Shown here one piece after another: positions 3,538-39,640 of a stretch of 43,491 nt of DNA. The stretch is from the NCBI GenBank assembly GCA_001464865.1, contig LNEG01000166.1, positions 1-43,491 of the forward strand. The letters run 5' to 3'. Below the pieces are notes generated by a model that was not told where the DNA came from, searched no databases, and saw only the letters and a program-made list of their open reading frames with translations. The stretch is from Burkholderiales bacterium Ga0074133 (lineage in GTDB: Bacteria; Pseudomonadota; Gammaproteobacteria; Burkholderiales; Burkholderiaceae_C). The position numbers and the translations under genes are program-made. How positions within the stretch are numbered: the first letter of the stretch is position 1; each line of letters opens with the position of its first letter.

Positions 3538-3586
3538 GCCGGTGGTCCTTTGTTTAATTGCCTGGATAGCTATCTATTTGATAGTG
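3538..3586 (-). repeat. 49-nt dispersed element, intergenic copy 1
   Basis: On the minus strand it reads CACTAT, 8 nt, TAGC, then 26 nt and CCGGCC. Spacing is identical to the other seven copies. It lies in the gap between the RluF-like gene and the DUF898 gene and is clearly richer in A+T than its surroundings. Confidence 0.7.
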
Positions 3587-3611
3587 AGGTGGCAGGGCCT
3601 CGGCAGGGGTT

Positions 3612-4406
3612 CTAGAACTTCTCCCAGGGCTGCAGGTAGCGCCACTGCCCCTCGGGCACCTTGGACAGCGGCACGCGGCCGATGCGGATGCGCTTCAAGG
3701 CCACCACTTGCAGACCCACCGCCTCGCACATGGCCGGTACCTGGCCGGGCCGGATGCCCTTGAGGGCAAAGCGCAGTTTGGTCTCGCTCTGCCAGCTCAC
3801 CTTGACGGGGGGCAGCGGCCGGCCGTTGAACGACAGCCCGTGGCACAGCCGCTGCAGGCCGTGGGGCGCAATGGTGCCCGCCACTTCGACGATGCACTCC
3901 TGCTCCAGCGATTCGATGTCCTCGGCCAGCTTGCGGGCGATGCGCTTGTCCTGCGTGTAGACCACCAGGCCACTGGCCTCGGTGGGCAGCGGCGTGAAAC
4001 ATTCCAGCTGCCGGAAGTGCCGCTGCAGCAGCCGGATGCCCGAGGCGTCTTCAGCCAGGTGCGACTCTGCGCCCAGCAGCGTGACGGCCTGCGGCGCGCC
4101 CTGGCTGCGGCTGCAGTGGGCGGCGGTGCCTGCGGGCCCGGCGGGCTGCGCCAGCCCGGCTTCAAACCCTGGCGGCTTGTGCAGCAGCAGCGTCACGGGC
4201 GTGAGCGCCAGCAGGCTCGCATCGGGGTCCACCGCCACGGCTTGGTCGGGGCGCACACGGGCGCCGGGCAGCTCGACCACCTTGGAATCCACGCTGACAA
4301 AACCGCCCTCAATGAATTGCTCGGCGGTGCTGCGCGAGCAGTTCAGCTGATCGGCCACGCGTTTGGCCAGGCGGATGTGGGAAGGGTCGGAGTGCTTGTC
4401 GGTCAT
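3612..4406 (-). CDS. RluF/RsuA-like pseudouridine synthase homologue lacking the catalytic Asp
   Basis: The 264-residue protein has an N-terminal S4-type RNA-binding domain (about 8-60) and a pseudouridine-synthase-like domain. The C-terminal RIRIGRVPLSKVPEGQWRYL strongly resembles RluF, which modifies 23S rRNA. In active family members the catalytic motif is GRLD followed by GLLL-type residues; here the aligned stretch is FTPLPTEASGLVVYT (137-151), with Pro141 where Asp belongs. The usual NKP motif is HKPPG at 76-80. What is seen is a conserved fold with a lost catalytic residue. It may be an RNA-binding or chaperone derivative, or a protein with another activity. ATG at 4406 is preceded by a weak purine-rich stretch. 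Confidence 0.75.
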   Translation of the reverse strand: MTDKHSDPSHIRLAKRVADQLNCSRSTAEQFIEGGFVSVDSKVVELPGARVRPDQAVAVDPDASLLALTPVTLLLHKPPGFEAGLAQPAGPAGTAAHCSRSQGAPQAVTLLGAESHLAEDASGIRLLQRHFRQLECFTPLPTEASGLVVYTQDKRIARKLAEDIESLEQECIVEVAGTIAPHGLQRLCHGLSFNGRPLPPVKVSWQSETKLRFALKGIRPGQVPAMCEAVGLQVVALKRIRIGRVPLSKVPEGQWRYLQPWEKF

Positions 4407-4513
4407 GGAGGGGAAGGGCGGAGTGAAGGGTACGGGCTCGGCCCAGGGTGCTTTTCTAGCCTGCAAAAGAAAGGCAGGAATCGTTGGTGCTGTGCTGGTC
4501 GACGCGTCGCGCG

Positions 4514-4541
4514 GCGCTTCGACAGGCTCAGCGTGAACGGT
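4514..4541. repeat. Possible short interspersed repeat fragment
   Basis: CGCTTCGACAGGCTCAGCG followed by TGAACGGTT resembles a short repeat that I recall from intergenic regions of many proteobacteria (TTCGACAGGCTCAG...GAACGG). It is a single copy here, in the 166-bp gap between the RluF-like and Nudix/MBL genes. The identification rests on memory of the motif only. Confidence 0.35.
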
Positions 4542-4572
4542 TGTGGTTCGTTGGTATGAATGCGTGGCCGCG

Positions 4573-6282
4573 TCAGTTGTTGCCGGGCTGCTGCGCCCGG
4601 ATTCGCTCCACATGCGCCAGCAGTGATCGCTGTGCCACCGGCCACATGCGCGGCGGCACGTCGTCATACGCGTGGCGCACCCAGTCTTCCATGGTGCCGT
4701 CGGGCTGGGCCTGCATGGCGGCCATGACCTTGGCTTCGCGGGCCAGCCGGTGGGCCTTGAGCCGGGCGATGGACTGGCGCGCGCCCAGCACAGGGCCACC
4801 CAGCACGTAGCCGTGGGCCGGCAGGATGAACTCCACGCCGTGCTGCGCGCAGGCGGCGTCCAGCCGGTCGAGCGAGTCGAGGTAGTCGGCCATGTTGCCG
4901 TCGGGCGGATCGATCACGGTGGTGCTGCCGTTCAGGATGTGGTCGCCGCTGAACAGCAGCGCATCCTCGATCAGCAGCAGGCACAGGTGGTTGGCTGCGT
5001 GCCCGGGGGTGTGGATGACCTGTAGGGTATGGGTTACGGGGCCATCTGGGGTTGGTCCTGCAAGCGTGAGCAGTTCATCATTTTGTAGCGCCCGGTCGGG
5101 TGTGAACTCGCTCGCCGCACGGGCGGTAGGTGCCGAGGGCAGGCCCAGCACCGGGGGGCGCGGCCTGCCGGACTGCGCGCACATCGCCTGCAGCGGGGCC
5201 GCACCGGGTGAGTGGTCGGGGTGCGAATGCGTGCACACGATCATGCGGATGTCGCCACCCGCGGCGCGCCACAGCTTGTCCAGGTGCTCGGGATCGGCCG
5301 GGCCGGGGTCAATGGCGATGAACCCGGTGGCCGGATCGCCCACCAGGTAGCTGTTGGTGCCGGGGCCCGTCATCACGCCGGGGTTGGGCGCGGTCAGGCG
5401 CTGTACGTTGCGCAGCAGCGGCACCGGGCGTTCGGCCTGCCAGTCCAGCGGGTGCACGATCTGCCCGTCGGGGCAGACCAGCGCCAGCTCGCCAAAGGGC
5501 GTTTCGTCCTCCATGTAGCGTGCTTCCTTGCCCGCCAGAACGCCGGCGCGCGGGCAGCTTGCCCACAGGGGCTGTTCATCCGACAGCGCGTCGAACACAT
5601 CCTGCGTGCGGGCAAAGGCCGCCAGCCTCCGCAGTGTGCGGATGGTCGGAAAGATCATGAAGAACTGGCCTGCCTCGTGGCGCGCCAGTGCGTCGGCAGG
5701 GCGCACCCACACCGGCTCGAACTGCTCGGCCTCGTCGGCCACGGGCTCCTGGCCATCGGGCATGCGGGCAACGAGAAACGGCACCTCGAAGCGGCGCGCC
5801 AGATCACGGTCGGCTGTCCAGTGCGCCAGCAGGAACACAGCGTCGGCCGCCGGGCGCAGGCCGCGGTCCTGGCACTGCGCCACAAAAGGCTGGTGGCGGT
5901 CCAGGGCGGCGATGTCGGCAGCATCGGCCCACTGGCCTTTGCGAGGGCCATCGGCATGCCGGGCCAGCAGCACGCCCAGCTCTTCAAAGCTTTCGCGGAT
6001 GGCGGCGATGGCCCGGGTGAGGTGCAGGTCGTCCTGCGTGGGGCGGCGGTCGGCCGCGGCGTGCGTCGAGGGTGCTGCATCCAGCGCGTCGATACCGCCG
6101 CCGGGGAACACATAGGCATTGGGCGCAAAGCTGGCCGTGGGCGAGCGCCGGGTCATCAGCACCTCCAGCCCGCCGGGCGAGTCAGCGCTGGCGGGCGCGT
6201 CGCGCAGCAGCAGCACGGTGGCTGCCGGACGGGTGGCTACGGGTTCGCGGTGGGCGTGCAGTTGCTGGGTGGTGCGGGGCAT
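4573..6282 (-). CDS. Nudix hydrolase / metallo-beta-lactamase fusion protein
   Basis: The 569-residue two-domain protein has an N-terminal Nudix-like domain (about 15-250). GGG at the start of the box and RESFEELGV are separated by an insertion, as in the NUDT19-type Nudix box. The C-terminal domain is metallo-beta-lactamase: THSHPDH supplies the HxHxDH metal site, followed by [16 protein letters not shown] and [10 protein letters not shown], the order seen in LACTB2-like hydrolases. The metal ligands look complete. The start at 6282 ([10 protein letters not shown]) is chosen because upstream frame would overlap dapF on the other strand; no strong Shine-Dalgarno is visible. Its substrate is unknown; a nucleotide or CoA-ester plus a thioester or RNA would be guesses. 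Confidence 0.85.
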
Positions 6283-6346
6283 CGGGCCATTATCGATGCC
6301 GCCCGTCCGGCATGCCTTGATAGGCACCAACAGCCATAATCCGGCC

Positions 6347-7228
6347 ATGCAGATTCGTTTCACCAAAATGCAGGGCGCCGGCAACGACTTCGTGGTGCTC
6401 GACGAAACCGGCGGGCAGCTGGGCCTCACGGCGGCGCAGTACCGCTTTCTGGCCGACCGGCACTTTGGCGTGGGCGCGGACCAGATCCTCACCGTGCGCC
6501 CGTCGCCCGCGCAGGGCATTGATTTTGAATACGTGATCCACAACGCCGACGGCGGCGAGGTGGAGCAATGCGGCAACGGGGCGCGCTGCTTTGCGCGCTT
6601 TGTGCGCGACAAGGGCCTGACCGCCAGCGACACCATCCGTGTGCAGACCAAAAGCGGCGTGATCGCCCCGCGACTCACGCCCGATGGCCGCGTCACGGTG
6701 GACATGGGCCGCCCGGTGTTCGACCCGGCCCGTGTGCCGTTTGAATCCGCCGGGTTGGAGCCCGTGCAACAGGGTTTGGGGCAAAAGTGGCCGCTGCTGC
6801 TTGATTCAAATGGCAGTGGTGCTACTGTATTGGTAGCAGTTGCTTCCATGGGCAACCCCCACGCCATGCAGCTGGTGGACAACGTGGACACCGCACCCGT
6901 GGCCAGCACCGGCCCGCTGATCGAAAGCCACCCGCGTTTTCCGCAGCGCGTGAACGCCGCCTACATGCAGATCGTGGACCGTGGCCATGTGCGGCTGCGC
7001 GTGTACGAGCGCGGATCGGGCGAAACGCTGGCCTGCGGCTCGGGTGCCTGTGCCGCTGTGGCATCGGGCATCCGCCTGGGGCTGCTCGACACCACCGCGC
7101 ATGTCGACACGCGCGGCGGCCGCCTGACCATTGCCTGGAGCGGCAACGAGGCCGACTCCGTTTTCATGACCGGCCCGGCCACCACCGTGTTCGAAGGCCA
7201 GATCGATTTACCTGACTCCCTCTCATGA
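6347..7228 (+). CDS. dapF: Diaminopimelate epimerase
   Basis: DapF converts LL-diaminopimelate to meso-diaminopimelate, the precursor of lysine and the residue MurE later adds to peptidoglycan. The 293-residue protein starts [19 protein letters not shown]. Both catalytic cysteines are present: Cys75 in [13 protein letters not shown] and Cys230 in [11 protein letters not shown]. The start fits the family's usual N-terminus, although the frame is open upstream. The stop overlaps the DUF484 start by 4 nt (ATGA), so the two are co-translated. Residues about 148-164 are encoded by a copy of the 49-nt dispersed element, in antisense orientation, where DapF sequences are variable. Confidence 0.97.
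6790..6838 (-). repeat. 49-nt dispersed element inside dapF (antisense)
   Basis: Minus strand: TGCTAC, 8 nt, TAGC, 26 nt, GCGGC. It has the same spacing as the intergenic copies. On the plus strand it codes for [16 protein letters not shown] of DapF without breaking the frame or disturbing the SMGNPH motif that follows. Confidence 0.6.
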
Positions 7229-7926: not shown

Positions 7927-7927
7927 G

Positions 7928-8034
7928 CCCCCTTGAGGCGCTGCGCGCCTTCCCCCCGCTCTCGCTGCGCTGCGCTGCGCGGGCAGGGGGACGACGCCCT
8001 CGCTGCGGGGCGGCCCTTGCTCGGCGCCCCGCGC
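7928..8034 (+). repeat. GC-rich ~100-bp dispersed repeat, copy B
   Basis: It begins 1-2 nt after the DUF484 stop codon and reads in the direction of that gene. It shares long blocks with the minus strand of 2101-2200, including AGGGGGACGACGCC-like and GGGGCGGCCCTTG segments. It contains the hairpin AGGCGC-TGC-GCGCCT and a CCCCCC/GGGGG stem. Confidence 0.8.
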
Positions 8035-8112
8035 CTGGCGCGCGCCGGTTTCAGCCGCCTGGCTGTATTGCAATCCGCTGCCTCGCGTAGCGCCCCGTGC
8101 GCAACTGATCCC

Positions 8113-11311: not shown

Positions 11312-12934
11312 TCAACCGGCGTAGGAGAGCGCCCCCGCGATCCGGGGTGCAAAGCGCCCGCCGTCCTCCAGGGTCAGGCGCTCCGGGGGCAGCTTGAACG
11401 TATCGACCGTTGCCACCAGCTCGCATGCCTGCTGGTTGAGCGATGCAGCTGCAGACGCCATTTCCTCGACCAGCGCAGCGTTTTGCTGGGTGGCCTCATC
11501 CATCTGGGAGACGGCCAGATTGATCTGGTCCACTCCCTGGCTTTGCTCGTTGCTGGCCGATGTGATTTCTTCCACGATCACCGTGACTCGCCGGATGGAG
11601 TCGACCACCTCATGCATCTTGGCGCCCGCACGGTCCACCAGCGCTGTGCCGTCCTTGACCCTTTCAACGCTGCCGCTGATGAGCTTTTTGATCTCTCGCG
11701 CTGCGTCTGCCGAACGGCCTGCCAAGTTGCGCACTTCCGAGGCCACCACAGCGAACCCGCGGCCCTGTTCGCCAGCCCGTGCCGCCTCCACAGCGGCGTT
11801 CAGCGCCAGGATGTTGGTCTGGAACGCTATGCTGTCAATGACGCCGATGATGTCCGAGATCTTGCCGCTGCTTTCGTCCATGGCTTTCATGGTGCGCACC
11901 ACATCTGCCACGGCGGCGCCGCCCTCGATGGCCACCGCGGTCGCAGCGGCAGCCAGTTCGTTGGCCTTGCGGGAGTTGTCGGCGTTCTGACGAACGGTGG
12001 AATTGAGCTCCTCCATCGAGGCCGCCGTCTGCTGCAGCGCGCTGGCCTGCTCTTCAGTGCGGGACGACAGGTCATTGTTGCCCTCTGCGATCTGTTGCGA
12101 CGCGCTGGCCACGCTGACGGAGCTTTCATGCACCGTGCCCACCATTTGCACCAGGCTGTGCTGCATGCGCTTGAGCTGTGCCATCAGGCTGGTGGTGTCG
12201 TCCCGCTTGAGTTCGATGGCCACCGTGAGGTCGCCCTGCGCCACACTGGTGGCCAGTGCGGCCGCAATGGCGGGCTCGGTGCCCAGCTGGCGCACGATGC
12301 TGCGTGCCACGTAGTAGCCGAACCCCAGCGCGAATGCGATGCCCGTGGCAATGGCCAGGATGGTGAAGAGCTTGATGGTTTCGTACATCTTGACGGAGCC
12401 CTCGTATTCGGCACGCGCCGTATCCAGCTGCACCTGCACCAGGGCGCCCAGCACCTCCTGCAGCGGGTCGATGGCGGGGTACAGCTCCTTGGCGGCATAC
12501 GCGCTCAGACCCGGGACATCGTTCGCGCGCACCAGCGAGTCGATGGTTTGTACCGCCTTGTCGGCAGACGCCTTGAGCTGCTGGAACTGCTTGACCAGCC
12601 GTACCTCGGCTGGCACCAGCTGGGTCGCCAGATAGGCGGACCAGTTGTCGGCGATGTCTTTTCTGGCTTTCTCGAGCGAGGCCAGCGCCTGCTGCTGCGT
12701 GAAACCTCCGTCACGCACCTTGTGGGCGGCGTCCACCACGTCCACGGCGTAGGCGTCTGACACCAGCTTGATCTGCTTGAGGGGGATCACACGGTCCTGG
12801 TAGACCGTGTTGAGGCCCTGGTTCGCCTCCCGCATTCCCAATAATCCTGCGGTACCGATCGCTGCAGTGAGCAGCACCATCGCCGCCAGCAGCAGGGCCA
12901 GGCGGGTGGAAATCTTGAGTTTGCTGAAACTCAT
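11312..12934 (-). CDS. Methyl-accepting chemotaxis protein (third receptor of the operon)
   Basis: The 540-residue inner-membrane chemoreceptor has a short cytoplasmic tail, TM1 (about 11-33), a periplasmic four-helix-bundle domain (about 35-185), TM2 (about 187-210), a HAMP domain with the SVAQGDLT motif, and a long signalling coiled coil. The hairpin tip contains [20 protein letters not shown] and [15 protein letters not shown], which bind CheW and CheA. ATG at 12934 has an AAAGGA Shine-Dalgarno. The C-terminus lacks the pentapeptide that tethers CheR/CheB in some receptors. The bound ligand cannot be deduced from the sequence. Confidence 0.95.
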
Positions 12935-13078
12935 GGCTATTCCTTTGTTTTCTCGAAAATCTGGACAGAAAGATGTCTGTGTACAGGGCTCCGCTGCAGG
13001 CGCAAGTTGCGCCCACGTTGTGGAAGGGAAGGGTTCAAAGTGGCGAACCGCGCGGCGTATGTGTCCGGATGTGCTGGG

Positions 13079-14740
13079 CTAGGCGATGCCCGTGCGGCTG
13101 AGCGCCAGCTTCTTGAGCGCCCCCGCGGGAATGCGTCGCTGGTCACCCGATGCTGCGGTTGCAACGCGAGGAGCCGCTGCCTGTGGAAGGTCGTCACGGA
13201 CGCGGAAGGCCGCCACCACATCGACCAGTTCCGACGCCTGGGTATTGAGGCTACTCGCGGCTGCGGCCATTTCCTCGACCAGCGCTGCGTTCTGCTGGGT
13301 GGTCTCATCCATCTGGGCCACGGCGTCGTTGACCTGGCTGACGCCCTGACTTTGCTCGCTGCTGGCTGCGCTGATGGCACCCATGATGTCCGTCACGCGA
13401 TGTATGGCGCCCACCACCTCGGTCATCGTCTGGCCGGCGCGGTCTACCAGTGCCGAGCCAGCCTCCACCTGTTCCACGCTGGCTCCGATCAGCGACTTGA
13501 TCTCGCGCGCGGCGTCGGCAGAGCGGCTGGCCAGGCTGCGCACCTCGCCAGCCACCACCGCAAAGCCGCGCCCCTGCTCGCCGGCACGAGCGGCCTCTAC
13601 CGCAGCGTTCAGCGCCAGGATGTTGGTCTGAAAGGCGATGCCGTCGATCACACCGATGATGTCGGCGATCTTGCGCGAGCTGTCGTTGATGCCTTTCATG
13701 GTGCGGACCACGTTGACCATCACGTCGCCGCCCTGCGTCGCCACGCTGGCGGCCGTTTGGGCCAGCTGGTTGGCCTGGTGTGCGTTGTCGGCATTCATGC
13801 GGACGGTAGAGCTCAACTCTTCCATGGATGCAGCCGTTTCCTCCAGTGCGGAGGACTGTGTTTCTGTGCGTAGCGAGAGATCGCGATTGCCAGCGGCGAT
13901 CTGGCTGCTGGCGCTGGCCACGCTCAGCGAGCCCTCGCGCACGCGTGCCACCACCTGCGTCAGTGCGGTCTGCATGCTGTTCAGCGAAGCCAGTAGGGGG
14001 CTGAACTCATCGGTGGCCTTGTCGGTGGCGGAAGCCGTCAGGTCGCCCTGGCTGACACGGGCCGCCACGGCCTGTGCCTGCGAGACACGCGACCGGAGCG
14101 TGCTGGCGATATGCCAGGAGAACAGCATCAGCGCGGCTGCCACGCCCAGGACGGCGGTGACCAGGCCCAGCAGCGTCTGGCGCAGGTCGTCCTTGATCGA
14201 TACCAGGTTGTCTGCAAGCATGTCGCTCTGGTGGTCCTTCTTCTTGGCCACCATGTCGAGCACCGCATTGCGGGCCGGAATCGTCTTCTCAACGAGCAGG
14301 TCGAAGGCGTCATCCCTGAGGTCTTGCTGGATGAGCTGCACGTTCTGGCCCGCCACAGTCCAGAAGTTGTCCAGGGCCACGCCCAGCGCCTTGGCCTGCG
14401 ACTTCTCAAGGTCTGTGGAGGCCTCCTTCTCCAGTGCCAGTCGGTCTGCGTCGATCGCCTGCTTTTTCGCCCCGATGTCCGCCAGGGTGGCCGCAAGGTC
14501 GTCGGGTGTTCGTACCAGCAAGGCGTGGCGCACCTGCAGCGATGAACGTGTGACGTTCAGCTCGATGGACGCCAGCCGCTGCTGCTGTGGCACCAGTTCG
14601 GTGGCCACTTCATGCATTTCCTGATTCACCCCGGACAGCCTTGACCATGCAAAGGCCGTCAGCAGCGCCAGCGCAAGGACCACGAGAATCGATAACAGAT
14701 AAAGGCGTTTGCCGATTCCGAGTGCAGCAAAGAAGTTCAT
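13079..14740 (-). CDS. Methyl-accepting chemotaxis protein (second receptor of the operon)
   Basis: The 553-residue chemoreceptor has TM1 at about 12-32, a periplasmic four-helix-type sensor (35-190), TM2 at about 195-215, HAMP ([11 protein letters not shown]) and an MCP signalling domain with [21 protein letters not shown] at 14740 ([13 protein letters not shown]) is preceded by AGAGGGAA, a good ribosome site; the open frame upstream adds 50 codons that overlap the next receptor gene and is not believed. The signalling domain is nearly identical to that of its neighbours while the sensor parts differ, which points to tandem duplication followed by sensor divergence. Confidence 0.95.
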
Positions 14741-14807
14741 GTTTCCCTCTTGGAATGTTGGTGTCTGCGGGATGGGTGGACGTTGATGTTCAAGGGTGCC
14801 AACGGTG

Positions 14808-16433
14808 TCAGGCCCGGCCAGGTAACAGGGCGGGTGCGGCGACTGGCGGTGTGAATCGCTGGGGCGCTGCGCCACCTTCTGGCGCTTCATGCGGAAGCTT
14901 GAAGACCGCTACCGTCTGTACCAGCGCAGTGGCCTGCTGGTTGAGGCTGGTCGCGGCTGCGGCCATTTCTTCCACCAGGGCAGCGTTCTGCTGCGTGGTC
15001 TGGTCGATCTGCATCACGGCTTCGTTGATCTGGTCGATGCCCTGGCTTTGCTCGCCGGTGGCGGCAGTGATCTCGCCCACCACCTGCGACACGCGGTGAA
15101 TGGCCTGTACCACTTCGGTCATGGTCTGCCCGGCCCGGTCCACGAGCGCTGTGCCGGCCTCCACACGTTCGACGCTGCTCACGATCAGGCCCTTGATCTC
15201 GCGGGCGGCCTCGGCGGAGCGCCCGGCCAGGTTGCGCACCTCGGTGGCCACCACGGCAAAGCCGCGGCCCTGCTCGCCTGCGCGCGCAGCCTCGACCGCA
15301 GCGTTCAGCGCGAGGATGTTGGTCTGGAACGCAATGGAGTCGATCACCCCGATGATGTCGCTGATACGTTGCGAACTGTCATTGATGCCCTTCATGGTGG
15401 CTACCACCTCGGCCACCACATGGCCGCCGCGCGTGGCCACCGTCGATGCATCCAGGGCGAGCGCATTGGCCTGACGGGCGTTTTCTGTGCTGGTATGCAC
15501 CGTGGCGTTGAGCTGCTCCATCGACGCCGCGGTTTCCTCCAGCGCACTGGCCTGCTCCTCGGTGCGCATCGACAGGTCGTTGTTGCCCTGGGCGATTTCG
15601 GCGGACGAGTTGGCCACGCTGTCGCAGCTGTGGCGTACCTGGCCTACCAGCCGGGCCAGCGAGGTTTGCATGGAGTGCAGGGCCTGCAGCAGTTGCGCGG
15701 TTTCGTTCGTACCCCTGAAGGCAATGGGCTGGCTCAGGTCGCCCGACGCCACGGCGCGTGCCGCGGCCACGGCCCGTTGCAGCGGACGGGTGGTGGAGCG
15801 CACGATGAGCACCGCCAGGACGATGCTCAGCACCAGCGCCACGGCCGTGAGTGCCAGCACCAGCACGTTGAGTTGCGTGCCCGCCGCCACGGCCTCGGCC
15901 TGCGCCGTGTCGGCCAGCTTTTCCTGATAAGCGATGAGTGCGCTCAGTGAGTCGAAGTACGCCTTGCGCGGCGCCACCATGGGGCCCGTGAGCACGCTGC
16001 GCGCTTCGTCGATCTTGCCTGCGCGCGCAAAGTCGAAGAATCGCTCCATCTGCCGGGAATAAGCACCGCGTGCACCCAGCGTTTCAGCCAGTGCGGCCTT
16101 GCCCTTGTCGGACGTGATCTGACGGCCAAGTTCGTCGAACAGCCTGGTGATTTCCTGGCGCTTGCCGGTGATCAGGGACTCCTGCGCGCGCAGGTTGTCA
16201 GGACGCGGGTCGAGCACGATCTGGGTGAGCGCCAGCTCGACGGTCACCACGTCTTCCTTGGCCACGTGCAGGTGCAGCACCTTCGGGTAGCGGTCGTCGA
16301 TGATGGTGTGGAATGCCGAATCGGCGCGCTTGGCCAGGGTGAGCGAGAGGCCGCCCATGATGCAGATCAAGAGGCTCATCAGGCCGAAGCCCAGTGTCAT
16401 CCGCGTCGAAATCTTCAGGTCACTGAAATTCAT
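14808..16433 (-). CDS. Methyl-accepting chemotaxis protein (first receptor of the operon)
   Basis: The 541-residue chemoreceptor has TM1 at about 11-33 and a periplasmic helical sensor rich in DDRYPKV and TGKRQEITR-type features, as in 4HB_MCP domains. TM2 is at about 190-210, followed by HAMP ([11 protein letters not shown]) and the MCP signalling domain with the conserved tip. ATG at 16433 has a GGAGGA Shine-Dalgarno and follows cheW by only 26 nt. The receptor ends in a Pro/Ala-rich tail ([13 protein letters not shown]) without a CheR-binding pentapeptide. Its ligand is unknown. Confidence 0.95.
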
Positions 16434-17259: not shown

Positions 17260-18498
17260 ATGAAAACCCTCAGACTTCGCCCAGGCAAGGAGCGCTCGCT
17301 CCTGCGCCGCCACCCCTGGATCTTCGAGTCGGCCATCGCCAAAGGCGGCGGCGACAGCGGCGAGACCGTGCGCGTGGAGTCGGGCGACGGGAAGTTTCTG
17401 GCCTGGGCAGCGTTCAGTCCCACCTCACGCATCCGGGCCCGTGTGTGGAGCTTTGATGAGTCACAACGCATCGATGCTACGTTTTTTGTAGCTTCATGTG
17501 CAAATGCAATAAGGACCAGAGCCCGCTTTGACCTGAAAAGTGATGGTGTGCGGCTGATTCACGGCGAATCGGATGGCCTGCCAGGCCTCATCGTGGACCG
17601 CTACGGCGACACCCTGGTGGCCCAGTTCACCAGCGCCGGCACCGAGCGCTGGAAGGGCGTGATCGCCGATGCATTGCTCGAGCAGACCGGCCTGGCGCAC
17701 CTGTACGAGCGGTCGGACGCCAGCGTGCGCGCCCTGGAAGGGCTGGAGCCCGCCACGGGCTGGCTGCGCGGTGGGGTCGCGGCAGCAGGGAAGGACGCGC
17801 CACCGCTGGAGCTCACCATCCGAGAGCACCAGTGGCAATTGACCCTGAACATTGCTGAAGGCCACAAGACCGGCTTCTATCTGGACCAGCGCGACAGCCG
17901 CAAGCGCTTTGCCGACTACGTGCAGCGCCTGAACCTGCGCCGTGTGCTCAACTGCTTTTGCTACACCGGCGGCTTCAGCGTGGCGGCACTGGCTGGCATG
18001 GCCGCTGCAGAGCAGGCGGGCGGGCAGGGCGGGGGCGAGGTCGTGTCCATCGACTCATCGGGTCCCGCGCTGGAGCGCGCGCGGGCACATGTGTCGCTCA
18101 ATGGCTTTGACCCTGCCCGGGCGCAGTTCATGGATGCCGATGTGAATGCATCGCTGCGGGAGTTCCTGAAAGACGGGAAACGCTTTGACGCCATCGTTCT
18201 GGATCCGCCGAAGTTCGCGCCGACGGCAGCCCATGCCGAACGCGCGGCGCGTGCATACAAGGACATCAACCGGCTTGCGCTCCAATTGCTGTCGCCGGGC
18301 GGGGTGCTGTTCACTTTCTCGTGCTCGGGCGGCATCAGCGCCGACCTGTTCCACAAGATCGTGGCGTCGGCTGGCGCGGATGCCGGGGTCGATGGCTACA
18401 TCCTCGAGCGCCTGGGCGGCGCGCAGGACCATCCGATGACGCTGGAGTTTCCCGAGGGCGAATACCTCAAGGGGCTGGTGGTGATGCGCAAGGGCTGA
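17260..18498 (+). CDS. rlmI: Class I SAM-dependent rRNA methyltransferase, RlmI-like
   Basis: This is probably the 23S rRNA m5C1962 methyltransferase. The 412-residue protein has an N-terminal PUA domain (about 1-75, with RHPWIFESAI), a central EEHEE-like region with GESDGLPGLIVDRYG, and a Rossmann methyltransferase domain. That domain has NCFCYTGGFSVAAL (SAM motif I), VVSIDSSGPALERA, AIVLDPPKFAP (the catalytic DPPKF motif) and LFTFSCSGG (motif with Cys). ATG at 17260 gives the standard length; upstream frame is open but has no family similarity. Residues 72-88 are encoded by a copy of the 49-nt element. The gene diverges from cheW. Confidence 0.92.
   Translation: MKTLRLRPGKERSLLRRHPWIFESAIAKGGGDSGETVRVESGDGKFLAWAAFSPTSRIRARVWSFDESQRIDATFFVASCANAIRTRARFDLKSDGVRLIHGESDGLPGLIVDRYGDTLVAQFTSAGTERWKGVIADALLEQTGLAHLYERSDASVRALEGLEPATGWLRGGVAAAGKDAPPLELTIREHQWQLTLNIAEGHKTGFYLDQRDSRKRFADYVQRLNLRRVLNCFCYTGGFSVAALAGMAAAEQAGGQGGGEVVSIDSSGPALERARAHVSLNGFDPARAQFMDADVNASLREFLKDGKRFDAIVLDPPKFAPTAAHAERAARAYKDINRLALQLLSPGGVLFTFSCSGGISADLFHKIVASAGADAGVDGYILERLGGAQDHPMTLEFPEGEYLKGLVVMRKG
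17475..17523 (+). repeat. 49-nt dispersed element inside rlmI
   Basis: TGCTAC, 8 nt, TAGC, 26 nt, GAGCC. It matches the intergenic copy before hslU over most of its length, including TAGCTTC and GTGCAA. It encodes DATFFVASCANAIRTRA in the PUA-to-catalytic region and leaves the frame intact. Confidence 0.75.
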
Positions 18499-23481: not shown

Positions 23482-23533
23482 GGCTGCGGACCAGCCCGGC
23501 CGACGCGGTTGCTGGGCACCTGCTGCTTCTTTT

Positions 23534-23582
23534 TGCTCCTATTTTTATAGCTTCTGGTGCAATTAATACATGCGCTGGAGCC
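23534..23582 (+). repeat. 49-nt dispersed element, intergenic copy 2
   Basis: TGCTCC, 8 nt, TAGC, 26 nt, GAGCC in the hslV-hslU gap, ending 22 nt before the hslU start. With the rlmI copy it shares TAGCTTC, GTGCAA and GAGCC at the same positions; with the murD copy it shares TGCTCCT, ATAGC and GCGCTGG. Confidence 0.75.
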
Positions 23583-23604
23583 CACCTATGACCAGGAAGA
23601 CCCC

Positions 23605-26552: not shown

Positions 26553-26553
26553 A

Positions 26554-28628: not shown

Positions 28629-30151
28629 TCCTCGCCGCGCCTGCCATTGCGACGCTCGTCTCTGCATCCGCTGCGGTGGACTGGCTGCGCGCACGTGTCA
28701 CCGGCACGCTGCACACCGACAGCCGCCGCATCCAGCCCGGTGATGGCTTCATCGCCTGGCCCGGCGCCGCCACCGACGGGCGTGCCCATGTGGCCGATGC
28801 ACTGGTACGCGGTGCGACGGCCTGCCTGGTGGAGCAGGCCGGCGTGGAGGCCTTCGGTTTTGCGGGCGACCATCTGGCTGCGCTGTACGGTCTGAAGGCG
28901 GCTACGGGCCCCATTGCTGCGCAATGGTTTGGCGCGCCCACCCAACGCCTGGATGTCCTTGCGGTCACCGGCACCAACGGCAAGACCAGCACAGCATGGT
29001 GGCTCGCTGGTGCCATCAACGCGCTATCGAAAAAAGAGCTGCCAGGCAATCAGGGATGCGCGCTGGTAGGCACTTTGGGCTCTGGTGTTCCGCCAGAGCT
29101 CGAATCCACCGGCATGACCACGCCCGACCCGGTGCGTCTGCAGCGGGCGTTCAGCACGTTCGCGGCCGCCGGGCTGTGGGCCTGCGCCATCGAGGCATCG
29201 TCCATCGGCCTGGCCGAGGCGCGGCTCGATGGCACACAGATCCGCGTGGCGGTTTTCACCAATTTCACGCAAGACCACCTGGACTACCACGGCACTATGG
29301 CCGACTACTGGCTGGCCAAACGCGCGCTGTTCGACTGGCCGGGCTTGCAGGCGGCGGTGATCAACACCGACGACGCTGCCGGGCTGCAACTGCATGGCGA
29401 GTTGCGCGGTGGCAGCCTGGACCTGTGGTCCGTGTCGGCGCATGGCGCCGCCCGTCTGATGGCGCGAGACATCACGCTGGGCGCGCAGGGCCTGCAGTTC
29501 ACCGTGGTGGAGTACGGCGCAGGCCAGCATCTGCTGCAGACGCAGGTCATCGGCCACTACAACGTGCAGAACCTGCTGGGCGTGATTGCCACGCTGCGCA
29601 GCCGCGGCGTGCCGCTGGATGCGGCCGTCCAGGCGTGCGCGGGCCTGGCGCCCGTTCCCGGGCGCATGCAGCGCCTGGTGGCGCGAGGCCAGCCCCTGGT
29701 GGCGGTGGACTACGCCCACACGCCCGATGCACTCGACAAGGCTCTGCAGGCGCTGCGCCCCCTGGCGCAGGAGCGCAACGGCCAGCTGTGGTGCGTGTTC
29801 GGTTGCGGCGGCGACCGCGATGCCGGCAAGCGCCCGCTGATGGGCGCGGTGGCGCAGCAGCATGCCGACCGGGTGCTGGTGACCAGCGACAACCCGCGCA
29901 GCGAAGACCCTGCTGCCATAGTCCACCAGGTTCTGCAGGGCACGATTGCCGGCACCACCGTCAGCGCCGAGCTGGACCGCGCTCGCGCCATTGCGCAGGC
30001 CGTGGCTGCCGCGGCGCCGCAAGACGTGGTGCTGATCGCCGGCAAGGGCCACGAAGACACGCAGGAAACCGCAGGCGTGCGCCAGCCGTTCTCGGACATG
30101 GCCCACGCGCAATCCGCGCTGCGCGCCCGGGGAGCCACCACATGGGCATGA
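28625..30151 (+). CDS. murE: UDP-MurNAc-tripeptide synthetase MurE (meso-DAP type)
   Basis: MurE adds meso-diaminopimelate to UDP-MurNAc-L-Ala-D-Glu in the cytoplasm. The 508-residue protein has an N-terminal UDP-binding domain (HTDSRRIQPGDGFIA), the ATP motif GTNGKTS (116-122), TNFTQDHLDYHG in the central domain, and DNPRSEDP near the C-terminus. DNPR is the meso-DAP specificity motif, so the peptidoglycan is of the DAP type. GTG at 28625 overlaps the ftsI stop by 4 nt. Residues 132-149 are encoded by a copy of the 49-nt element and look like a small insertion after the ATP motif compared with the E. coli enzyme. Confidence 0.97.
   Translation: MILAAPAIATLVSASAAVDWLRARVTGTLHTDSRRIQPGDGFIAWPGAATDGRAHVADALVRGATACLVEQAGVEAFGFAGDHLAALYGLKAATGPIAAQWFGAPTQRLDVLAVTGTNGKTSTAWWLAGAINALSKKELPGNQGCALVGTLGSGVPPELESTGMTTPDPVRLQRAFSTFAAAGLWACAIEASSIGLAEARLDGTQIRVAVFTNFTQDHLDYHGTMADYWLAKRALFDWPGLQAAVINTDDAAGLQLHGELRGGSLDLWSVSAHGAARLMARDITLGAQGLQFTVVEYGAGQHLLQTQVIGHYNVQNLLGVIATLRSRGVPLDAAVQACAGLAPVPGRMQRLVARGQPLVAVDYAHTPDALDKALQALRPLAQERNGQLWCVFGCGGDRDAGKRPLMGAVAQQHADRVLVTSDNPRSEDPAAIVHQVLQGTIAGTTVSAELDRARAIAQAVAAAAPQDVVLIAGKGHEDTQETAGVRQPFSDMAHAQSALRARGATTWA
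29022..29070 (+). repeat. 49-nt dispersed element inside murE
   Basis: CGCTAT, 8 nt, GAGC, 26 nt, G-T-AGG. It shares AGCTGCCAGG and GCGCTGG-type blocks with other copies. It encodes NALSKKELPGNQGCALVG just after the ATP-binding motif; the frame is kept. Confidence 0.6.
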
Positions 30152-32859: not shown

Positions 32860-34883
32860 ACGCCAGCGACTCCCTCCGTCCCCTGCCACCCCTTGGCGCT
32901 GCCGTGCCCGAGGGTGTGGTCACGCCTGCGCCCGCGGTCACCGACGCGGGCGAACTGCAGCGCGCAGAAGATGGCGGTGCGGTGGGGGCAGCAGCCGGTG
33001 TGGATGAGGCGATGGGGCTCCATGCCGGGCAGCCCGTACCAGAGGGCTTCGATGCCGCGGGGGAAGTCGCCGACTCTTCAGACGCCGCCGCGGGCATGCC
33101 CGCGGATGGCGAACCCGGGGCGCCAGCCGACCCTGTGGCTCAGCCCGAACCCGCGGTCGCGGAGGCCGAAACTGTAGTCGCACAGCCGCAGCTGACAGCG
33201 GCGCGGGATGCCGCAGCGTTCGTGGCACAGATCTTTGCCGACGTGGCTGCACCTGAGGTGGCCGCGCCGCCCGAACTGCCACCCGATAGCGACGCCGCCG
33301 CGGACGAAACCGAAGTTCCGGACGCACCCCCGCAGCCCGTGGGTCGCCCCGGCGAGGGCATGGCTCCGCTGGAAGGGCAGAACATCCTCATCCTGGGCCT
33401 TGGGGCCTCGGGCGTGGCCATGGCGCGCTGGTGCGTGCGCTGCGGTGCCCGCCAGGTCACGGTGGCCGACACGCGCGCGGCGCCGCCCCAGTTGCCTGCC
33501 CTGCAGCAGGAGCTGCCGCAGGTGCGCTTTGTGCCGGGTGCGTTCGACGCTGCTCTGGTCGATGGGCAAGACCTGCACGCCGTCTACCGCTCGCCCGGCC
33601 TCAGTCCGGCAGTGGTTGCTCCTGTAGTGATAGCAGCTAAGGAAAATGGAATAAGCGCTGGCGGCGAATTGAGCCTGTTTTCTGCGGGTCTTTCCTTCCT
33701 GCAGGCATCGCACGGCTACGCGCCGGCGGTGCTGGCGATTACCGGCACCAACGGCAAGACCACGGTGACCTCGCTCACCGGGCAGCTGGTGGAACGCTCC
33801 GGCAAGCGCGTGGCGGTGGCCGGCAACATCGGCCCCACGCTGCTCGACACGCTGGCAGCCCGCATCGACGCCGGCACGCTGCCCGACGCATGGGTGCTGG
33901 AGCTCTCCAGTTTTCAGCTCGACGAGATCACGGGCTTTGAGCCCACGGCCGCCACGGTGCTCAACATCACGCAGGACCACCTGGACTGGCACGGCGACAT
34001 GGCCGCCTACGCCGCAGCCAAGGCCCGCATCTTTGGCGAAACCGGGTTGATGATCCTCAACCGCGAGGATGAGGCAGTCATGCGGATGCTGCCGACTCCA
34101 GTGAAGGTCAAGCTGCAGAAACCCCAGGTGCGCGAGCACATCACCTTCGGTGCCGACATGCCTCGCCGCCCCGGTGACTTCGGTATCGAAGTGGTCAGCG
34201 GCATGCCCTGGCTGGTGCGTGCCATGGATGCCGATGAAACCCGCAAGCGCAGCCGCCAGGCGCAGGATGAAGACCTGCACATCCAGCGCCTGATGCCCGC
34301 CGATGCACTGCGCATCCGCGGCCGGCACAACGCGGTCAATGCGCTGGCCGCACTGGCGCTGGCATCTGCCGCCGGCTGCACCCTGGCCCCCATGCTGTAC
34401 GGCCTGCGCGAGTACCGCGGCGAGCCGCACCGTGTGGAGCCAGTGGCCATCATCAACGGCGTGGAGTATTTCGACGACAGCAAGGGCACCAATGTGGGCG
34501 CCACCGTGGCGGCCCTCACCGGCCTGGGCGCCGAGCGCCGGCTGGTGGTCATCCTGGGGGGCGAAGGCAAGGGACAGGACTTTGCCCCGCTGGCAGCCCC
34601 CGTGGCTCGCTTTGCGCGGGCCGTGGTGCTGATCGGGCGGGACGCGCCGCTGATCCGTGCCGCGCTGGCCGATGCCGGCGTAGCACTGGTCGATGCAGCC
34701 ACGCTGCCCGAGGCCGTGCAGCTGGCGTCACGTCGCGCCCACCACGGCGACGCCGTGCTCATGTCACCGGCCTGCGCCAGTTTTGACATGTTCAGGGATT
34801 ACGAACACCGTGCCCACGTCTTCTGCGACACGGTACGCAGCCTGGCGGACGACGCCGGCGTTTCGCTGGAGGGCAGGGCATGA
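32856..34883 (+). CDS. murD: UDP-MurNAc-L-Ala-D-Glu ligase MurD with an N-terminal extension
   Basis: MurD adds D-glutamate to UDP-MurNAc-L-Ala. From the ATG at 32856, which overlaps the mraY stop as ATGA, the product is 675 residues. The first 168 are rich in Ala, Pro, Glu and Asp and are followed by a canonical MurD core beginning [18 protein letters not shown]. Core motifs are [39 protein letters not shown] and [12 protein letters not shown]. MurD is normally 440-510 residues. A start at 33360 (codon 169) would give a 507-residue protein; the perfect overlap with mraY favours the long form, but this is not proven. Residues 254-270 come from a 49-nt element. Confidence 0.93.
33617..33665 (+). 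repeat. 49-nt dispersed element inside murD
   Basis: TGCTCC, 8 nt, TAGC, 26 nt, GCGGC. It shares TGCTCCT, TGATAGC and AATAAGCGCTGG with the intergenic hslU-side copy. It encodes [17 protein letters not shown], in the region where E. coli MurD has HPSLSAAADAGIEIVG, with no length change. Confidence 0.75.
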
Positions 34884-36157: not shown

Positions 36158-37224
36158 GCACGCAAAAGACTGCCCTCATCATGGCCGGTGGCACCGGTGG
36201 CCACATCTTCCCGGGCCTGGCCGTGGCCGAGGAACTGCGCACGCGCGGCTGGCGCGTGCACTGGCTGGGCGCCCCTGGCAGCATGGAGTCGCGCATCGTT
36301 CCCACGCACGGCTTCCCGCTCGAGCTGATCGACTTTGGCGGTGTGCGCGGCAAGGGCATCGTCACGCTGGCCCTTTTGCCCCTGCGCCTGCTCCGCGCCT
36401 TCTGGCAGGCGCTGCAGGTCGTGCGACGCGTCAAGCCCGACGTGGTGGTGGGCCTGGGCGGCTACATCACCTTTCCCGGCGGGATGATGGGTGTGCTGTG
36501 GGGCAAGCCATTGGTGCTCCACGAGCAGAACTCGGTGGCGGGCATGGCCAACAAGGTGCTGGCCGGTGTGGCCGACCGCGTATTCACCGCATTCCCCGAA
36601 GTGTTCCCGAAGGGCCAGTGGGTGGGCAACCCGCTGCGTGCAGCTTTCACACGGCAGCCGGGACCTGCAGAACGCTTTGCCAGCCGTACCGGCCCGTTGC
36701 GGCTGCTGGTGGTCGGCGGCAGCCTGGGCGCTCGCGCACTCAACGAGATGGTGCCCAAGGCCATCGCGCTGATCCCGGCTGATCGCCGCCCGCTGGTGGT
36801 TCACCAGAGCGGTGCCACGCAGATCGAATCACTGCGCGCCAACTACACGGCGGCCGGTGTGGATGCAGAACTCACGCCTTTCATCGAGGACACCGCCAGC
36901 GCCTTTGCCGCGGCCGACATGATTGTGTGCCGCGCCGGTGCCAGCACCGTGACCGAAATCGCCGCGGTGGGTGCAGCGGCCGTGTTTGTGCCATTCCCTT
37001 CCGCTGTGGATGACCACCAGACTACCAACGCCCAGTTCCTGGTGGACGCGGGCGGCGGCTGGCTGGTGCAGCAGCGAGACCTGACCGCCGAAATGCTGGC
37101 AGATATGCTATTGAATACAGAGCGCTCCACCCTTATGGAAAAAGCGCTTCACGCCAAAAACATGCAAAAAATCAACGCCACCCGCGAAGTGGTGACTGCC
37201 TGCGAGGAGCTGGCACAACCATGA
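36154..37224 (+). CDS. murG: UDP-GlcNAc transferase MurG
   Basis: MurG adds GlcNAc to lipid I, forming lipid II at the inner face of the membrane. The 356-residue GT-B protein has the N-terminal [59 protein letters not shown] and the donor site [24 protein letters not shown] with [11 protein letters not shown] at 36154 has GGAGG upstream and overlaps the ftsW stop. Near the C-terminus, residues 318-334 come from the 49-nt element, at about the same length as in the E. coli enzyme. Confidence 0.97.
37106..37154 (+). repeat. 49-nt dispersed element inside murG
   Basis: TGCTAT, 8 nt, GAGC, 26 nt, CACGC. It contains the near-palindromic pair AGCGCT ... AAGCGCTT, a recurrent feature of this element. 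It encodes [17 protein letters not shown] near the MurG C-terminus. Confidence 0.65.
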
Positions 37225-38654
37225 AACACGCCATTCGCCACATCCACTTCGTCGGCATCGGCGGCGCCGGCATGAGCGGCATCGCCGAGGTACTGTTCAA
37301 CCTGGGCTACCGCATCTCGGGCTCTGACCTGGCCGACAGCGCCACGTTGCGCCGCCTCCACGACCTTGGCATCAAGACTTGCCTGGGCCACGCTGCAGCG
37401 CACATCGAGGACGCGGATGCGGTGGTCACGTCCACCGCAGTCACACCGGACAACCCCGAGGTCATGGCCGCCCGCGCCAAGAAAATCCCGGTGGTGCCGC
37501 GTGCGCTGATGCTGGCTGAACTCATGCGCCTCAAGCAGGGGATCGCGATTGCCGGCACCCACGGAAAGACCACCACCACCAGCCTGGTGACCTGCGTACT
37601 GGCCGAGGCCGGGCTCGACCCGACCTTCGTGATCGGCGGCAAGCTCAACAGCGCGGGCGCCAATGCCAAGCTGGGCAGCGGCGATTACATCGTGGTCGAG
37701 GCCGACGAATCCGATGCATCGTTCCTGAATCTGCTTCCCGTGATGGCCGTGGTGACCAACATCGATGCCGACCACATGGAAACCTACGGGCATGATTTCA
37801 ACCGGCTCAAGGGTGCCTTCATCGACTTCCTGCACCGCATGCCCTTCTATGGCACGGCTGTGCTGTGCGTGGACAGCCCCGCAGTGCGCGACATCTTGCA
37901 GAGCGTGACCTGCCCGATCACCAGCTACGGATTTTCCGAGGATGCCCAGGTACGGGCCATCAATGTCCGCGCGCAGGCTGGACAGATGCACTTCACGGTG
38001 CAGCGCCGCAACGGCGTCACGTTGCCCGACATGGACATCGTGCTCAACCTGGCAGGCGAGCACAACGTGCTCAATGCGCTGTCGGCCATCGCGGTGGCGG
38101 TAGAGCTCAACATCCCCGACGAAGCCGTGCAGCGCGCGCTGGCCAGCTTCAAGGGTGTGGGCCGCCGCTTCCAGCGCTACGGCGAGCTGCCTGCCAAAGG
38201 CGGAGGCCAGTTCACCGTGATCGACGACTACGGGCACCACCCGGTGGAGATGGCTGCCACGCTGGCCGCTGCGCGTGGCGCTTTCCCGGGCCGCCGCCTG
38301 GTGCTGGCGTTCCAGCCGCACCGCTATAGCCGCACGCGTGACTGCTTCGAGGATTTCGTCAAGGTCATCGGCAACGCCGATGCTGTGCTGCTGACCGAGG
38401 TGTATGCGGCCGGCGAGGCGCCCGTGGTGGCGGCTGACGGCCGTTCGTTGACGCGCGCGCTGCGTGTGGCGGGCCGTGTGGAGCCTGTGTTCGTGGACAA
38501 CGTGGCGGATCTGCCCCAGGCCATAGCCGACAACGCACGTGACGGAGACGTGGTGATGTGCATGGGGGCTGGCTCCATCGGTGCGGTACCTGGCAAGGTG
38601 GTTGATTTGCTACAAAATAGTGAGCTGAAAGTGCTTGAAGGGAGTGCGGCATGA
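37221..38654 (+). CDS. murC: UDP-MurNAc-L-alanine ligase MurC
   Basis: MurC adds L-alanine to UDP-MurNAc, the first peptide-forming step. The 477-residue protein opens with [18 protein letters not shown] (UDP-MurNAc binding). It has the ATP loop [57 protein letters not shown] and the C-terminal [10 protein letters not shown] and [18 protein letters not shown] at 37221 overlaps the murG stop and its stop overlaps ddl (ATGA). The last 14 residues, from LLQNSELK on, are encoded by a 49-nt element copy. Confidence 0.97.
38608..38650 (+). repeat. 49-nt dispersed element (5' two-thirds) at the end of murC
   Basis: TGCTAC, 8 nt, GAGC and about 25 nt that match less well. It provides the last codons of murC and runs up to the ddl ATG at 38651. 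The 5' half is clear; the 3' boundary is not. Confidence 0.5.
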
Positions 38655-39640
38655 CCCTTCCAGATTCCAGTATCGACGTCAAGGCGCTGGGCAAGGTGGC
38701 CGTGCTGATGGGCGGCGAGTCGGCCGAGCGCGAGGTGTCGCTCATGTCCGGCAGCGGCGTGCTGCAGGCACTGCGTGCCAGTGGCGTGGACGCCCATGCG
38801 TTCGACCCCGCCACCAATGCCTTGAGCGACCTCAAGCGCGACGGGTATGCGCGCTGCTTCATCGCGCTGCATGGCCGCCATGGCGAAGACGGAACCGTGC
38901 AAGGTGCCCTCGAGCTGCTGGGCATTCCGTACACAGGCCCAGGCGTGATGGCATCGGCCATTGCCATGGACAAGGTCATGACCAAGCGTGTGTGGCTTGC
39001 AGAAGGATTGCCCACGCCGCGCTATGTGTGGCTGGCACCCGATTGCCAGCAGCCCGAGGTGGTGCGCGCAGTCCCGGGCGAACTGGGCCTGCCGCTGATC
39101 GTCAAGCCACCTCGCGAGGGCTCGTCCATCGGTGTGACCAAGGTGCGCGAGCCTGCGGAGATGCAGGGTGCAGTGGAGATGTCCGCGCGCTACGACCCAG
39201 ACGTACTGTGCGAGGAGTTCATTGACGGTGAGGAAGTGACCTGCCCGGTGCTGGGTCATGGCGCACAGGCCCGTGCGTTGCCGGTGATCCGCATCGTGGC
39301 CCCCGACGGGGCGTATGACTACCAGAACAAGTACTTCACCGACGACGTGAAGTACCAGTGCCCGAGCGGACTGCCCGAAGCCGAGGAACGCGAGATCCAG
39401 CGCATCGTGCTGGAGGCCTACCGCACGCTCGGATGCCGTGGCTGGGGCCGCGCCGACCTGATGATCCGCGCCAGCGACCGCAAGCCCTTCCTGCTGGAGA
39501 TGAACACCTCGCCGGGCATGACTGGCCATTCGCTGGTGCCCATGTCGGCGCGTGCGTCGGGCATCAGCTACGAGGAACTGTGCCTGCGCATCCTGGCCGC
39601 TGCAGCACTCGATACACCCGCAAGGCCAAGGGCTGCCTGA
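38651..39640 (+). CDS. ddl: D-alanine-D-alanine ligase
   Basis: Ddl joins two D-alanines for the pentapeptide end that MurF attaches. The 329-residue ATP-grasp protein has [86 protein letters not shown] and [19 protein letters not shown], which hold the substrate and Mg-binding residues. ATG overlaps the murC stop by 4 nt. Its stop overlaps the ftsQ ATG by 1 nt (TGATG). DdlB-type by position in the dcw cluster. Confidence 0.97.

Follow-up and report, generated by a model that had tools for sequence, protein, structure and literature searches.

The window analysed here is a stretch of 43,491 nucleotides (43 kb), positions 1 to 43,491 of contig LNEG01000166.1, from Burkholderiales bacterium Ga0074133 (assembly GCA_001464865.1; contig C166 of genome G000 in our numbering). 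Its genes include dapF, the hslV-hslU pair and a division and cell-wall (dcw) cluster with murE, murD, murG, murC and ddl, and it comes from an Acidovorax genome; the 15 best of the named murE matches listed all carry that label. Eight copies of a repeated DNA motif lie among and inside these genes; they are the subject of this work and are collected in Table 1. The original prediction had described them as eight copies of an element of about 49 nucleotides with fixed internal spacing. All eight were found where it had placed them, and its tally of two intergenic copies (those listed at 3538 and 23534) and six copies in genes was borne out. It also took these six to be read as protein; their location in genes is correct, with the qualification that the copy at 6790 is antisense in dapF.

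Table 1. Motif copies in the window, scored with the profile of the Acidovorax relative G022 and with the profile of the window genome itself
Position	Strand	Location	G022 profile (bits)	Own-genome profile (bits)
3523..3588	-	Intergenic, S4-domain gene (3612-4799, -) / DUF898 gene (open reading frame (ORF) 2214-3533, -)	21.9	62.2
6775..6840	-	Inside dapF (ORF 6119-7228, +), antisense	9.9	52.8
17473..17538	+	Inside S-adenosylmethionine (SAM) methyltransferase gene 17077-18498, RlmI-like	30.0	61.7
23532..23597	+	Intergenic hslV/hslU, end 7 bases 5' of hslU ATG	33.2	57.1
29020..29085	+	In murE, variable-length loop after GTNGKT motif	3.6 (weakest)	21.3
33615..33680	+	Overprinted in murD	30.4	47.8
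37104..37169	+	Overprinted near murG 3' end	39.3	55.9
38606..38671	+	Spans murC end and ddl start	12.7	34.3

The tail of the first copy overlaps the called start of the DUF898 ORF. In dapF (Pfam DAP_epimerase, 6e-61) the copy directly precedes the best-matching DAP_epimerase stretch, and in the methyltransferase gene it sits between the PUA_3 and methyltransferase domains recognized by Pfam.

Definition and anatomy of the motif

The profile used for most of the analysis is an ungapped 68-column position weight matrix (PWM) trained, without the window genome, on 800 kb of G022, a single-contig Acidovorax relative of 5.05 Mb. The training blocks were picked where matches to a strict pattern were already known. 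This strict pattern occurs 7 times in the window genome and at most 94 times in any other genome of its genus, 20 of 40 genomes having a match; neither the reversed-pattern control nor the 16 genomes from other families gave one. At 8 bits the training blocks contain 118 copies, compared with none in either 2.4 Mb of Markov shuffles or the reversed sequence, and these counts confirm that the proposed family is real. Over 1.6 Mb of reversed control there was 1 match above 0 bits; the G022 copies themselves score from 20 to 93 bits. In 40 stretches of 20 kb spread over G022 we counted 107 copies in 800 kb, which corresponds to about 700 copies per genome. Near the two ends of the G022 contig (L171, 1-20000, and L170, 5020001-5040000) three copies and their flanks are identical or nearly so, which looks like the untrimmed end overlap of a circular assembly.

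Applied to the window, the G022 PWM returns the eight copies as its eight top scores, from 39.3 down to 3.6 bits, followed by -5.8 and -22.0, and the maximum in the reversed window is -23.4. A second PWM was built from the window genome, with the window copies in its training set, and was used on 358 kb of that genome: 129 kb of contigs chosen for a strict match, the window, and 185 kb of unselected DNA. It found 51 copies (1 in the reversed control), of which 22 lie in the chosen contigs, 8 in the window and 21 in the unselected DNA (0.113 per kb). The density across five genomes is 0.10-0.14 per kb, and the motif is over-represented genome-wide far above chance. The copies had also been noticed as richer in A+T than their surroundings, which is borne out: the 118 G022 copies have a mean GC content of 43%, against 64% for the G022 genome.

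A logo of 225 G022 copies (222 distinct), with positions counted from the G of GCTAY, covers -3 to +62, with an information content of about 65 bits for a background GC of 64%. The feature is thus about 66 bp long and not 49, while the fixed spacing is as originally described. It has a palindromic outer-left block, GCTAY-N7-RTAGC, that encloses an A/T tract. This is followed by a central block of about 27 bp, which in G022 is about TGCTAGCGCTTAT-N5-AAGCGCTAG, and by a 3' part made up of GGCC, then TTT or AAA at positions 51-53 and a run of A at 60-62; the tail GGCC-TTT-AAA belongs to the motif. Preferences with two-fold symmetry are centred on positions 8 and 31, and the two sub-sites are about 23 bp apart. 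The strongest coupling between positions is found among neighbours within the A/T tracts, which tend to be all A or all T, and this suggests that the shape of double-stranded DNA is what matters there. The motif is a bipartite double-stranded DNA motif of about 66 bp.

Origin by point mutation, site conservation and dialects

Copies are present at orthologous places of the division and cell-wall cluster in many Acidovorax, Simplicispira and related loci, often stronger than in the window: orthologs of the murE copy reach 41 bits, those of the murD copy 75 bits and those of the murC/ddl copy 52 bits. Alignments that span the murD site are gap-free for every sequence (72/72), of which 43 are motif-bearing, 27 motif-less and 2 intermediate. 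For murG the corresponding numbers are 47/47, 10/10 and 7/7 (64/64), and for murC 38/38, 5/7 and 3/3 (46/48), the exceptions being two motif-less relatives that are 3 and 4 amino acids longer. For example, the murD of locus L032 carries a 75-bit copy, and the peptide encoded there can be aligned gap-free with motif-less relatives, among them LAPVLDAARAIGLFVGGELDLFA. The copy in the methyltransferase gene is likewise gap-free against the single relative found (L091). Gap-free alignments of murE number 26 of 45 for motif-bearing and 5 of 29 for motif-less sequences; the loop beside its nucleotide-binding motif varies, being up to 6 amino acids shorter or 11 longer, and is uninformative on insertion. 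Five gene copies of G022, in MutS, ornithine carbamoyltransferase, RarA, RsmB and YbiB, were aligned with solved homologs from the PDB. At most 5 extra residues in a row were found, where an insertion would add 17-22: ornithine carbamoyltransferase has 5 relative to 7x99 and 3 relative to its closest homolog 4f2g, MutS has 2, RsmB has none, and the motif region of RarA and YbiB is shorter than in the homologs. Among 11 copies with an empty ortholog, 7 differ from it in length by at most 10 bp and the others by -74, which is near the 60-70 bp that a precise empty site would show, and by -22, -39 and -117. No in-frame addition of residues of the size of the element was found at the sites tested. 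Because motif-bearing and motif-less homologs of murD, murG and murC align almost always without gaps, the motif has been overprinted in these genes and not inserted; where this can be tested, it is written in place by point mutation.

Gene calls for G022 were made with a simple codon-based caller, so genic and intergenic counts are approximate. With these calls, 86 of the 118 copies fall between genes, 11 run over the end of a gene and 21 are internal to genes, where 8 follow the coding strand and 13 the opposite one. Divergent intergenic regions hold 5 copies where 19.9 are expected by length, and convergent regions hold 29 against 21.6 expected; the copies are mostly downstream of genes and away from promoters. 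Their spacing is near random, with coefficients of variation of the gaps of 0.91 and 0.80 for a random 5-95% range of about 0.80-1.19. Regular spacing was not seen, the second G022 block being at the lower edge of the random range. A replication-oriented signal such as the FtsK-orienting polar sequences (KOPS) or Chi was rejected because the copies have no consistent strand per replichore. There are local streaks on one strand, namely 17 of 19 copies on the plus strand at 2.5-2.75 Mb of G022 and 44 of 61 on the minus strand at 3.25-3.75 Mb.

Individual sites are conserved. The gap between hslV and hslU contains a copy in 37 of the 64 named loci that cover it and none in 27, and these 27 include Rhodoferax loci from genomes that are motif-rich elsewhere. 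Over the 37 loci having a copy (thresholds of 30 and 8 bits agree), the pairwise identity is 0.76 at high-information positions of the motif, 0.52 at middle and 0.32 at low-information positions, and 0.30 in the upstream flank; the identity per position correlates with the G022 logo (Spearman 0.76). Directed site comparisons among five motif-bearing genomes, in which many pairs are counted both ways and at least one pair is non-colinear (length difference 745), gave 49 of 57 occupied in both, 3 intermediate and 5 empty. The same comparison with the motif-poor genome G002 gave 3 occupied, 1 intermediate and 3 empty. The motif is kept at hundreds of chromosomal places, many of which are common to several species. 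Seven loci (L030, L041, L046, L048, L049, L054 and L061) have an extra copy at about 180-340, some 10 kb upstream of murE, that is absent from most other loci and is apparently a case of site turnover.

The low scores of window copies with the G022 profile are explained by a difference in dialect; decay of these copies is ruled out by the own-genome PWM, which reveals the dialect. Its central block is roughly ATAGCAACCAGGGCAAATAAAACAAG, compared with ATAGCTGCTAGCGCTTATTCAACAAG in G022. Position 23 is C in 99% of the G022 copies, in 24% of the window genome's copies and in 2 of its 21 unselected copies (13 of the 21 have G), and position 26 is T in 89% of the G022 copies and A in 16 of the 21. 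A third form, with GCGCAT and CTAGCGC, was found in G004 (25 copies) and G018 (20 copies), and G011 (17 copies) has the same form as G022. AGC at 14-16 is present in 98-100% of copies in all five genomes. We compared the window genome with G022 block by block against 50 random splits: the divergence of the central block is 0.131 (largest split 0.017), that of the outer-left block 0.012 (largest split 0.014) and that of the outer-right block 0.027, slightly above its null of 0.022. For G004 and G018 only the central block diverges beyond its null. When each copy was left out in turn, 45 of the 51 window-genome copies preferred their own profile and 213 of the 225 G022 copies preferred theirs; the preference for the own profile over that of G022 was 17 of 25 in G004 and 15 of 20 in G018. 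Copies of the window genome's dialect were seeded with the G022 profile, which biases them toward similar outer blocks and against a changed central block; the constancy of the outer blocks is therefore partly selected, and the central change emerged despite the bias. Orthologous places show the change of dialect in situ, several of them at unchanged length. Relative to a sister species the central block of the window genome has been switched in place, and its outer-left block has stayed the same.

Two further features of the window stand apart from the motif. Three consecutive minus-strand ORFs at 11312-16433 have common 300-nt blocks (11396, 13205, 14901) of 70-75% identity and are possibly tandem chemoreceptor paralogs, although this is a guess. 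A 77-nt inverted repeat, 81% complementary, has its arms 5.8 kb apart at 2082-2158 and 7977-8053.

Range across genomes and rival explanations

The range of the motif was scanned with a sequence-only profile. Of 40 Acidovorax genomes, 34 have at least 126 matches each, the window genome has 89, and five have only 1-7. Among 50 genomes reached via the named loci, 25 have at least 99 matches (including Simplicispira, Diaphorobacter nitroreducens, Comamonas granuli and four Rhodoferax), 12 have 1-75 and 13 have none; in this set no match was found in Ramlibacter, Pseudorhodoferax, Rhodoferax lacus or Giesbergeria anulus. In a 200-genome sample of the GTDB family, 73 genomes match, 37 of these with at least 25 matches, and matches occur in 59 of 141 genera. 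An association with Comamonadaceae had been suggested at the outset, and the motif is indeed found in many genomes of this family. In 240 kb of the motif-poor G002, 7 places score above 0 bits, all of them at 20 bits or less. From this patchy range the motif looks old in the family and repeatedly lost. Of the five motif-poor Acidovorax genomes, three (G047, G005 and G055) are larger than all others among the 40 (7.5, 7.1 and 6.8 Mb) and the remaining two measure 5.6 and 4.7 Mb; expansion of the genome may accompany loss of the motif. Searches by blastn with the consensus, which misses weak copies, placed the motif at 6 places in 4 of 72,556 plasmid records and gave no match in 50,697 phage records.

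One rival explanation is an RNA element, either a structured mRNA site or an intrinsic terminator made of two hairpins and a T run. Of the stem cells in the G022 dialect 90.5% are paired, and copies that a gene reads into have TTT at 51-53 somewhat more often (33 of 62 copies, against 7 of 24). Several pairs of the central stem are Watson-Crick slightly more often than independent columns predict (27-35, 139 versus 124.0; 19-43, 154 versus 140.6; 26-36, 154 versus 142.4), an excess that can follow from score differences between copies; the five pairs of the outer stem have none (for 4-12, 121 versus 130.5 expected), and the mutual information of stem pairs is 0.00-0.08. A covariation count on 60 of the better-scoring G022 copies scored 0.092 versus 0.083 when shuffled, with 16 of 500 shuffles equally high, and 8 of 840 cells were altered on both sides versus 4.8 expected, with 40 of 500 shuffles equally high. 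Covariation is thus weak at best, 13 of the 21 gene copies are antisense, and the window genome's own dialect has no central stem. No terminator-like site was found at the hslV-hslU copy of the window, and Rfam at the gathering threshold returned for the whole window only RNase P (bacterial RNase P RNA, RF00010, 183.7 bits, at 334-786). The motif does not look like an RNA structure, and we hold hairpins or a terminator to be improbable. The original prediction treated the copies as a repeated element and proposed a search for a mobiliser, such as a tyrosine transposase associated with repetitive extragenic palindromic (REP) sequences (RAYT). In its general form this explanation says that a transposase such as RAYT has spread a mobile palindromic repeat of the REP, miniature inverted-repeat transposable element (MITE) or Rickettsia-palindromic-element type. 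The many copies, their palindromic parts and an intergenic preference 3' of genes would suit it, and a RAYT-type Y1_Tnp protein is encoded in 37 of the 40 Acidovorax genomes. The five motif-poor genomes are all among these 37, and around seven RAYT genes, one of them covered on a single side, the closest motif copy lies at a distance of 0.4 to 3.4 kb. This Y1_Tnp protein of Acidovorax is about 240 amino acids long, is mostly single-copy and has no link to the motif. Pairwise identity among copies, pooled over all scores, has a standard deviation of 0.082 versus 0.054 in permuted columns, but this excess is explained by score differences between copies: within five score bins the spread stays inside the column-permuted range in all five, and a single top-bin pair (0.91), whose 3' flanks are also similar, exceeds the permuted maximum. 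There is no element-sized insertion at the three informative dcw genes or at five further genes, and the dialect changed in place in a concerted way. Lacking insertions, copy lineages beyond that one pair and a link to RAYT, a mobile repeat is very improbable and was rejected, and with it the RAYT as mobiliser.

A stronger competitor is a chromosome-organising or nucleoid site, at which a dimeric or tetrameric intracellular protein would bind the two palindromic sub-sites and the A-tracts and would condense or insulate the chromosome from about 700 positions. The two-fold symmetric preferences, the placement downstream of genes and off promoters, the scarcity on plasmids and phages and the conservation of individual sites all speak for it. 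It has more difficulty with the near-random spacing and inconsistent strand, with the loss of the central palindrome in the window genome's dialect and with the five of 40 same-genus genomes that have only 1-7 matches, and rewriting hundreds of sites in place would be hard to achieve through ordinary selection acting site by site. On balance we consider a chromosome-organising site unlikely, while taking it seriously. Much less probable is a site for gyrase or another topoisomerase that would resemble the enterobacterial bacterial interspersed mosaic elements (BIMEs) except in being born by point mutation. BIMEs bind gyrase. The convergent and tandem 3' placement and the avoidance of promoters are as for REPs (PMC3733652, from the sections available to us), but no direct evidence points to a topoisomerase, and a strict multi-block specificity with dialects would not be expected of such a conserved enzyme.

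A possible self-DNA signal and its known counterparts

Considered together, its over-representation, origin by point mutation, presence in genes and on both strands, avoidance of promoters, scarcity on plasmids and phages, A-tracts, shared sites, dialects and near-absence from some genomes fit uptake sequences better than any other class known to us. By analogy with these, its most likely role is that of a self-DNA signal and target of a DNA-binding protein, a proposal to which we give a little under an even chance. A putative sequence-specific DNA-binding protein would recognise the motif through base contacts and A-tract shape, a conserved surface reading the outer parts and a species-specific surface reading the central block. 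Fragments with good matches would be preferentially taken up or recombined, and matches would spread through biased recombination into any place that tolerates them, genes included. A change in receptor specificity would then rewrite the central block at all sites and so give rise to dialects. A bolder proposal, that the Comamonadaceae have a third, independently evolved system of marking self DNA throughout the genome, with a longer signal than in the known systems, a constant outer frame, a switchable central code and a putative receptor reading both parts, is tentative, and we would rate it as somewhat short of an even chance.

Several observations weigh against a self-DNA signal. The density of 0.10-0.14 per kb compares with about 1 per kb for the uptake signal sequences (USS) of Pasteurellaceae and the DNA uptake sequences (DUS) of Neisseriaceae, and the consensus is relaxed, unlike the very strong USS consensus described in the sections of PMC1626085 at hand. 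The greater length and partial two-fold symmetry suit a dimeric cytoplasmic protein equally well. The core competence genes show no correspondence with the motif: all 40 Acidovorax genomes have ComEA and DprA and 37 of them have ComEC, and the motif-poor genomes have ComEA and DprA in 5 of 5 and ComEC in 4 of 5, so that one of the three ComEC gaps is motif-poor. GspH does not discriminate between motif-rich and motif-poor genomes either, and among the competence genes tried none that follows the motif was found. No title on transformation in these genera is among the 12 papers that a literature search listed, and no binding protein was identified. Because of the lower density, the greater length, the relaxed consensus, the partial symmetry and the competence genes that do not track it, we do not file the motif as an uptake sequence; our judgement by analogy, held at roughly even chances, is that it works like one, with a chromosome-organising site as the main rival. 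If this is true, uptake-sequence-like systems would extend to a large environmental family; otherwise the motif might represent a new chromosome-organising code. Either reading predicts a specific DNA-binding protein, and the dialects provide a built-in test, since the specificity of the binder should differ between strains mainly in the central block. Under the proposed third system, different Acidovorax species would write their own dialects at shared sites, those in essential cell-wall genes included. The motif also hints that a signal at the DNA level can shape residues of essential proteins.

A fragment of the motif has been listed before. For Acidovorax ebreus TPSY, Tong, Schliekelman and Mrazek (2017, PMC5217627) give 114 copies of GCTTAT(N)5AAGCG, 107 of them intergenic and 5 in genes, with 44 in convergent, 4 in divergent and 59 in co-oriented positions. 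This sequence is the central block of the G022 dialect (positions 24-39), and the listing is an independent confirmation of the placement. In the sections of that paper available to us it appears as a 'potential novel motif' with no function given, and as the fragment only, without outer blocks, a test of overprinting, dialects or a range in the family. The same source names Rhodoferax ferrireducens T118 as having the most motif pairs among the genomes scanned, and its ATAGCT(N)22CAAAAG of Polaromonas naphthalenivorans may be another dialect. The original remark that no named family was known for the element stands for the whole motif and not for this fragment, which had appeared in print as a spaced motif without characterisation. 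Among the openly licensed PubMed Central papers searched, PMC5217627 is the only one found to contain part of the motif; the motif in full, the overprinting, the conservation of sites and the dialects were not found in them.

Compared with other repeats, the motif is like REPs and BIMEs in its short palindromic units 3' of genes, mostly outside divergent regions (PMC3733652). The GTAG and CGTC families of REPs are held in the available sections of that paper to be miniature transposons of RAYTs, whereas the motif has neither insertions nor a RAYT link; its main text names no Acidovorax, Comamonas, Delftia, Variovorax, Polaromonas or Burkholderiales. Like Rickettsia palindromic elements the motif places palindromic sequences inside protein genes, but those elements add peptides in frame (PMC3733652, same sections) and the motif makes no element-sized addition at the tested sites. 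It differs from USS and DUS in its length (66 bp versus about 10-31), in being at least 7-fold sparser, in its relaxed consensus and partly palindromic form, and in that no link to loss of competence genes was found for it here; USS and DUS are said to be spaced somewhat more regularly than random. According to the portions of the cited papers at hand, USS of Pasteurellaceae arise by substitutions and not insertions, have A/T-rich flanking motifs and occur as two sequence types (PMC1626085), DUS of Neisseriaceae have dialects (PMC3630211), and uptake sequences are weaker and rarer in a species with competence-gene defects (PMC1626085, PMC3630211, PMC7811141, PMC2346458). The motif shares with USS its origin by substitution and a core with A/T-rich flanks, and with USS (Hin and Apl types) and DUS its hundreds to thousands of copies, its preference for non-coding DNA, its many copies in genes (PMC1626085, PMC3630211, PMC7811141) and its dialects or types among relatives.

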